NCBI GenBank assembly: GCA_030635145.1
Contig: DAOVZK010000004.1
Coordinates: 34,673-98,672, forward strand
Reading direction: 5' to 3'
DNA length: 64,000 nt
DNA from: Planctomycetota bacterium
Lineage (GTDB): Bacteria; Planctomycetota; Phycisphaerae; SM23-33
Below, piece after piece: positions 2,483 through 37,696 of the stretch; the first letter of the stretch is position 1; each line of letters begins with the position of its first letter. Both the position numbers and the translations under genes were made by a program. The notes below the pieces were generated by a model. It ran no database searches. It was not told the origin of the DNA and worked only from the letters and a program-made list of their open reading frames with translations.

Positions 2483-2950
2483 CTAGCCTCTGGTGCTTGA
2501 CGCTTTTTTCAAAAAATTTTCGAGCAGCTGTTCCTGGCGGGCGTGCATTTTTTTTGCTTTTGCGGGTGTCGTGTCGTCGTACCCGATAACATGCAACAGC
2601 CCATGCGTTACATACAGCAGCAGTTCTCGCTGCGCGGTATGAGCGTATTTTTTTGCTTCTCGGACGGCGACATCGCTGCAGACGATTAGCTCGGCGGTGA
2701 GATTTTCGCCCGGTTCGCCAAGGTCGAAGCTGATAACGTCGGTGGCCCCGCTGTGATTGAGAAATTTGCGGTTCATCCTGCTCATTTCGCGTGAAGCGAC
2801 GACGGCGATGTCCACTTCGTCGAATTCGACTTTTTCCGCGGCGGCGACAAAATCCACCAGCTGCGAAATTCGCTTTCGCGGTATTCGCATTGCCTTGCTG
2901 CGAGATACGATGGTCAGTAAAGTCTTGCGAGGGATTTTTTTATTGCTCAT
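2483..2950 (-). CDS. ybeY: Endoribonuclease YbeY
   Basis: 155 aa; 'THGLLHVIGYDD' UPF0054 zinc-binding motif and 'ATDVISFDLGE'. Confidence 0.9.
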   Translation of the reverse strand: MSNKKIPRKTLLTIVSRSKAMRIPRKRISQLVDFVAAAEKVEFDEVDIAVVASREMSRMNRKFLNHSGATDVISFDLGEPGENLTAELIVCSDVAVREAKKYAHTAQRELLLYVTHGLLHVIGYDDTTPAKAKKMHARQEQLLENFLKKASSTRG

Positions 2951-4740: not shown

Positions 4741-4820
4741 AAAAAAAACGGTGCTGGAGGAGGGGAGTCCAGCACCGAAAACTCGGTTACCTTTTGGAGG
4801 ATTGCATAACCGAGGAGCCT
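4741..4820 (-). ncRNA. Candidate small RNA with sigma-70-like promoter, two hairpins and intrinsic terminator
   Basis: Minus strand: TTGACG (4855-4850), 17-nt spacer, TATCAT (4832-4827); then CTCGGTTA(17-nt loop)TAACCGAG, then CGGTGCTGGA-CTCCCCTCC-TCCAGCACCG followed by a run of eight T. No credible ORF. Confidence 0.5.
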
Positions 4821-5000
4821 AACTCTATGATAGCTATCAAGTTCGATTGCGTCAATAAAAAACCAAATTTTTTTTGCCCCGATTTGGAGTAATTTTTACC
4901 ACAGCCAGAATCAGGCTGAGTTGCTTAAGAATCGTCCTAGCAAGAGGTTAGGGCAGGATGTGTTAGGTTTTTTTGGGGAGGGCTGGGGGAAACTTATCGC

Positions 5001-5031
5001 AGCAAAAAGGCCATCACTGAGGATGGCCTTT
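5001..5031 (-). terminator. Intrinsic terminator downstream of rpmB
   Basis: Minus strand AAAGGCCATC/GATGGCCTTT 10-bp stem followed by T-run, about 30 nt after the rpmB stop. Confidence 0.75.
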
Positions 5032-5060
5032 AAGATATCTATTTTAAACCCGGCGAAGCC

Positions 5061-5321
5061 TTACGCTTCTGCTTCAGGGGTCCAGTTTCGTTTGACGGGT
5101 TTTTCGATCAGCCCATTGCGAATCGCCTTGGCTGAAACGTTAATACGCACAACTTTACCGTCTATGACAGCTCTTACACGCTGCATATTGGCCTTGAATT
5201 TGCGTTTGGTTCTACCGGTTGTCTTGACACCAACACCACCGAGACGCTTGGCCTTACCACGAGTTGTAATCGACCGGCCTGCTGATGTTTTCTTACCTGT
5301 TATTGGACATACACGCGACAT
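5061..5321 (-). CDS. rpmB: 50S ribosomal protein L28
   Basis: 86 aa; 'MSRVCPITGKKTSAGRSIT...RTKRKFKANMQRVRAVIDGKVVRINVSAKAIRNG'. Confidence 0.95.
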   Translation of the reverse strand: MSRVCPITGKKTSAGRSITTRGKAKRLGGVGVKTTGRTKRKFKANMQRVRAVIDGKVVRINVSAKAIRNGLIEKPVKRNWTPEAEA

Positions 5322-5420
5322 ATTTTAGCTCCTGTACTTTCACCCCGCAAACAAAGCGAGGGCGAAGTATTGTACACCTATCAAATTTAACTGCAAGTGC
5401 AATTTTACCTTTTTCGCTTA

Positions 5421-37603: not shown

Positions 37604-37696
37604 GGAGGTGCCCGGTATCCTGGTGGTGCCCTTGGTCTTCAAAACCAATGAGGGGCTCAAAAAGTCCTTGGTGGGTTCGATTCCCATTCACCTCCG
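37604..37696 (+). tRNA. selC: tRNA-Sec (anticodon TCA)
   Basis: GGAGGTG...CACCTCC acceptor pairing; anticodon arm TTGGT-CTTCAAA-ACCAA; long variable arm AGGGGC..GTCCTT; T arm GTGGG-TTCGATT-CCCAT; discriminator G, no encoded CCA. Confidence 0.92.

Follow-up and report, generated by a model that had tools for sequence, protein, structure and literature searches.

A Conserved Two-Hairpin RNA with C-Rich Loops in One Order of Phycisphaerae: A Candidate Hfq-Independent Regulator of Translation

Introduction

The window, the whole 64,000-nucleotide stretch of planctomycete DNA analyzed here, carries a short minus-strand unit beside rpmB that is almost certainly a real gene, apparently for a small RNA (sRNA) of a new family belonging to a known functional kind. 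The best explanation of its occurrence is a stand-alone gene that is vertically conserved in one order of Phycisphaerae (Planctomycetota). The sRNA probably acts in trans and independently of Hfq, blocking the initiation of translation by pairing with purine-rich ribosome-binding sites. Comparative evidence shows the conservation of the putative gene, its predicted structure, its promoter, and its loop; transcription, mRNA pairing, the direction of the effect, and the regulon are what we infer.

The sRNA Unit of the Window

Sequence reading and folding of minus-strand positions 4855–4741 give a −35/−10 pair followed by a two-hairpin unit of ~80 nt that ends in a U8 terminator. The first-pass annotation had described TTGACG-17-TATCAT and such a unit with a 10-bp terminator stem on this strand, and all of these elements are present. 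The features are:

4850..4855, minus strand: −35 element TTGACG; a TTGAC-type element with a 16–18 nt spacer precedes most family copies
4827..4832, minus strand: −10 element TATCAT, at a 17-nt spacer from TTGACG
4741..4821, minus strand: predicted sRNA transcript unit, a covariance-model match of 99.9 bits
4810..4820, minus strand: 5′ segment AGGCUCCUCGG, almost unchanged among copies and unpaired in its 5′ portion as far as GGCUC
4782..4814, minus strand: hairpin 1, stem CUCGGUUAU/GUAACCGAG of 9 pairs, with AAUCCUCCAAAAG inside the loop
4749..4777, minus strand: terminator hairpin, stem CGGUGCUGGA/UCCAGCACCG of 10 pairs, with the 9-nt loop CUCCCCUCC
4741..4748, minus strand: U8 tract of the intrinsic terminator, read from the sequence
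~5007..5036, minus strand: terminator-like hairpin of rpmB, GGCCATCctcagtGATGGCC then T5, read from the sequence
5061..5321, minus strand: rpmB, upstream of the sRNA on the same strand

Judged from the position of the −10 element, the sRNA of the window probably starts at ~4821–4819. Its fold energy is −29.0 kcal/mol, compared with −16.0 ± 2.6 for dinucleotide shuffles (z = −5.0), none of which folds as well (0/200). TTGACG-17-TATCAT matches the consensus at 10/12 positions, a quality expected 0.9 times per 1.2 kb by chance, and this promoter match taken alone is weak evidence. The unit is considered more than chance because it is conserved across genomes.

The separation of the unit from rpmB, which had also been claimed, stands, since rpmB has its own terminator-like hairpin at ~5036–5007. 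An independent promoter and an intrinsic terminator, as in trans-acting sRNAs with C-rich loops, are both found. The GT87 gene is convergent to the sRNA unit, and no relatives of its protein were found in the related genome contigs searched. Two genes from the sRNA lies ybeY (endoribonuclease YbeY, Pfam PF02130; window 2483–2950), probably by coincidence. Elsewhere, window positions 37604–37695 hold a selenocysteine tRNA (Rfam tRNA-Sec, 69.3 bits), which means that the organism may make selenoproteins.

Conservation of Structure, Promoter, and Loops

Two covariance models were used: R1, built on the transcript of four copies without the promoter and run against the family, the class, and the phylum, and the refined R2, built on 37 copies. 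In the alignment of the 37 copies, which is fitted to the model and so favors the percentage paired, 99.1% of cells are standard pairs, and 15 of the 18 pairs show changes on both sides. Helix 1 is paired in 98.6% of cells with both-side changes in 6/8 pairs, and helix 2, the terminator, in 99.4% with both-side changes in 9/10. Controls gave no shuffle as good (0/500), and sliding controls were 30–49% paired. Both-side changes across 15 pairs are hard to obtain from model fitting, and they appear at 6 pairs already when four copies are aligned independently with MAFFT. Folded individually, every copy forms two hairpins, nearly all with the same 7-nt unpaired 5′ tail.

The promoter, which is absent from the model, is conserved as well. 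A sigma-70-like promoter matching at least 10/12 positions precedes 27/37 copies, where shuffles would give 0.6, and one matching at least 9/12 precedes 33/37, where they would give 5.0; these counts use a looser rule over 75 nt, under which the shuffles were also scored. A stricter −10 rule applied to 60 nt leaves 19/37 copies at 9/12 or more, against 2.0 expected. A few copies, L042, L082, L083, and L084, have no good promoter. The −10 element and the start of the conserved GAGGCUCC are mostly 14–46 nt apart in nadD-linked copies, which makes a short 5′ leader likely in these, and 5–7 nt apart in the window copy.

The constant parts of the family are the terminator loop CUCCCCUCC and the 5′ GGCUCCUCGG, the latter nearly invariant. 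The terminator loop keeps CCUCC in 33/37 copies while the letters of its stem vary. Loop 1, usually CUCCCUCC, has CCUCC in 24/37 copies; this loop is missing or unrelated mainly in relocated paralogues. The earlier statement that both loops carry CCUCC is true of the window copy but holds only in part for the family, where it applies to the terminator loop more widely than to loop 1. CUCGG, the 5′ arm of stem 1, hardly varies even though it is paired. A count of the 14-mer GGCTCCCCTCCYCY over 35 genomes gives 24 occurrences (21 in family RNAs, 2 in a sister RNA at G014:C98, and 1 elsewhere, at G033:C114) and none of its reversed control. Counting CCUCC in both loops, the conserved single-stranded sequence complementary to Shine-Dalgarno (SD) regions that marks C-rich sRNAs is found.

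Two further features of the sequence were considered. In 25 copies, a 5′ GAGG could pair with the CCUC of loop 1, and this candidate pseudoknot would hide the anti-SD sequence; two GAGG copies are without the loop-1 motif. A peptide-coding reading of the sRNA was rejected, with closed ORFs of five or more codons inside just 3/37 transcripts.

Distribution and Gene Neighborhood

Of 38 genomes from the order, R2 has matches in 31 at E ≤ 0.01 and in 30 at E ≤ 2e−13. The first-pass annotation had named beforehand a lack of conservation of promoter and loops in relatives as an observation that would count against it; 30 genomes keep the promoter, the two hairpins, and the terminator loop, which lends good support to its reading of a C-rich sRNA. 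Strong R1 matches are confined to the family of the window and a second family of the same order (3/3 genomes), with none in the phylum sample or among ~260 further genomes of the class. The best R1 scores outside the order are 27.8 bits (class sample) and 29.9 bits (phylum sample), compared with 36–100 bits for accepted members. Pattern matches in Actinobacteria, Spirochaetaceae, Deltaproteobacteria, and Ruminococcus score at most 17 bits in the model and were taken as chance. A viral origin was rejected, the exact pattern being in no viral contig.

Each genome has only 1–3 clear copies. The usual home of the sRNA is between nadD and the convergent coaD: nadD is upstream on the same strand in 24/37 copies, a convergent coaD is within 300 nt in 19/37, and one or both are present in 27/37. 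The window copy, a paralogue that has moved away from this home, lies downstream of rpmB, as does one G023 copy; BLAST against 60 related genomes recovered four copies, all in other genera and none adjoining rpmB. The genome of the window has a second copy at G000:C70:117721–117797. The nadD gene of this genome sits ~170 nt short of where its contig stops, and the assembly may therefore lack a third copy. An S41 peptidase, named from the peptidase sequence, neighbors copies in both G023 and G017. The latter are a tandem pair (L044:4001–4252, G017:C56), two copies ~170 nt apart, each with a promoter-like element, near a tRNA gene. That promoter and structure are kept while the locus shifts among nadD/coaD, rpmB, the S41 peptidase, and others argues for action in trans.

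Comparison with Known RNA Families

At gathering threshold, the sRNA has no match in Rfam. The closest families are CcsR1 and ar14, both alphaproteobacterial "cuckoo" RNAs, which score far below threshold and count as analogues rather than relatives, the likeness reflecting a shared design of hairpins with C-rich loops. CcsR1 (RF02791), of the stress-induced CCUCCUCCC or "cuckoo" RNAs of Rhodobacter, is of like size (83-position model) and bears CCUCC. Two family copies align over the full CcsR1 model at 28.2 bits (E 0.0074) and 27.7 bits, far below the gathering threshold of 65.3, and there is no order-wide match to CcsR1-type or cuckoo families. CcsR1–4 have the loop CCUCCUCCC and are processed from the ccaF1 transcript (PMC10253847), whereas the Phycisphaerae sRNA has the loop CUCCCCUCC and its own promoter. 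Cuckoo loci are co-transcribed with the DUF1127 gene ccaF1; the neighbors found here are nadD/coaD, rpmB, and others.

The alphaproteobacterial ar14/NfeR1 (RF02344) likewise has unpaired anti-SD motifs, variable stems, a sigma-70 promoter with conserved residues, and several copies per genome (PMC7143759, PMC10746234). It has three hairpins, each with CCUCCUCCC, whereas the Phycisphaerae sRNA has two, with the loop CUCCCCUCC, in another phylum, and so lies outside that family. The best of 19 homologous loci scores 29 bits with the ar14 model and the window copy 19.1, against a gathering threshold of 58.8. RsaE/RoxS, FsrA, and CsfG of Firmicutes also use single-stranded C-rich stretches to pair with ribosome-binding sites, but their architecture differs. 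RsaE/RoxS had been proposed as the model for the window unit, a comparison that gives way to the cuckoo RNAs CcsR1 and ar14: the RsaE model has no match at E ≤ 5 in the window region or at E ≤ 2 in the 19 loci. RoxS is linked to NAD/NADH balance (PMC8216469), and the usual neighbor of the Phycisphaerae sRNA, nadD, serves NAD synthesis, perhaps by coincidence.

Proposed Mechanism and Alternatives

Transcription of the sRNA would be driven by its own sigma-70-type promoter and ended by its own terminator. The RNA is predicted to display the unpaired 5′ tail GGCUC, loop 1 (in most copies CUCCCUCC), and the 9-nt terminator loop. The C-rich loops, and perhaps also the 5′ CUCCUC, may then pair with the G-rich SD regions of a set of mRNAs, where the paired sRNA would, with no need of Hfq, compete against the ribosome and so reduce translation. 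The 16S 3′ end GGATCACCTCCTTT is present in the genome of the window. Hfq was not detected in any of the 38 genomes of the order, and positive controls gave matches. A precedent is ar14/NfeR1, which has been shown experimentally to silence ntrB through CCUCCUCCC anti-SD loops (PMC10746234).

A limited set of target searches turned up no conserved target. Among exact 9-mer complements GGAGGGGAG before ATG in the family genomes, no target gene recurs across genomes, and GGAGGGGAG in this position is just mildly commoner than its reversed control. With gene starts crudely called, complementarity to the translation starts of window genes is not clearly above controls in a duplex-energy test, and SD usage among these genes looked weak. 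The starts of nadD, coaD, and rpmB, examined as targets, are not conserved partners of the sRNA. Within the rpmB start region (window 5321–5346, minus strand), the ribosome-binding site AGGAGCUAA could form a duplex of −11.9 kcal/mol with UAGGCUCCU, the 5′ end of the neighboring sRNA; this pairing is absent at rpmB in the other rpmB-linked genome.

The absence of a conserved target from these searches agrees with an alternative in which a protein recognizes the C-rich loop and the 5′ GGCUCCUCGG and is sequestered or guided, with mRNA pairing secondary. Such binding could also account for the conservation of the loop, and the near-invariance of CUCGG within a stem suggests recognition beyond structure; CcsR RNAs work with a small protein, CcaF1 (PMC10253847). 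However, the loop is the exact complement of an extended SD sequence, the common signature of pairing sRNAs, and lacks the GGA motif for CsrA, and the only protein genes constantly adjacent are nadD and coaD, which encode metabolic enzymes. We regard protein binding as the main role as improbable.

The frequent position just behind nadD, in the same orientation, would also fit a 3′-UTR-derived sRNA, or simply the 3′ end of nadD mRNA, its hairpins serving mainly termination and mRNA stability, as would the few copies with no good promoter. The excess of promoters of at least 9/12, found before 33/37 copies, speaks against this origin, as do paralogues away from nadD, among them the window copy, which is preceded by a gene with a terminator of its own; we give it little credence. 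It is very unlikely that the RNA is a sponge or decoy that relieves another regulator by pairing with mRNA leaders or G-rich small RNAs, although RosA, the G-rich partner of C-rich sRNAs in B. subtilis (PMC8216469), makes pairing between small RNAs plausible. A repeat element devoid of RNA function, a bidirectional terminator, or hairpins arisen by chance can practically be dismissed: the window promoter is of a quality met by chance about once per 1.2 kb, but covariation, promoter conservation, and order-wide retention contradict these readings, there are only 1–3 clear copies per genome, and the opposite strand has no T-run after the hairpin.

Sister RNAs and Significance

The order may hold a wider class of C-rich sRNAs. 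The sister RNA L047:2988–3070 (G014:C98:138495–138577, plus strand) has a promoter-like TTGACG and carries the module CAGGCUCCCCUCCCCUG twice, the second as the terminator, with a fold z of −5.8. Other RNAs with two hairpins, CUCC/CCUCC loops, and terminators, which possibly belong to this class, are L046:3001–3068 (G006:C40), L048:2998–3083 (G016:C51), L053:3001–3079 (G014:C78), and L055:3001–3077 (G027:C4).

The small RNAs of Planctomycetota have hardly been charted, and a literature search found nothing on anti-SD sRNAs in this phylum. An order-wide sRNA in genomes where Hfq was not detected offers a concrete, testable gene together with a ready covariance model. A bolder proposal, which we advance tentatively and think rather unlikely to hold in full, is that the sRNA is a global Hfq-independent regulator of translation throughout the order; it would have arisen independently of the cuckoo RNAs with the same design, its ancestral nadD–coaD home would reflect a tie to NAD/CoA status, and it would be part of a larger set of two-hairpin C-rich RNAs. 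If pairing with ribosome-binding sites is the true mechanism, sRNAs with anti-SD loops would have evolved convergently in another phylum.
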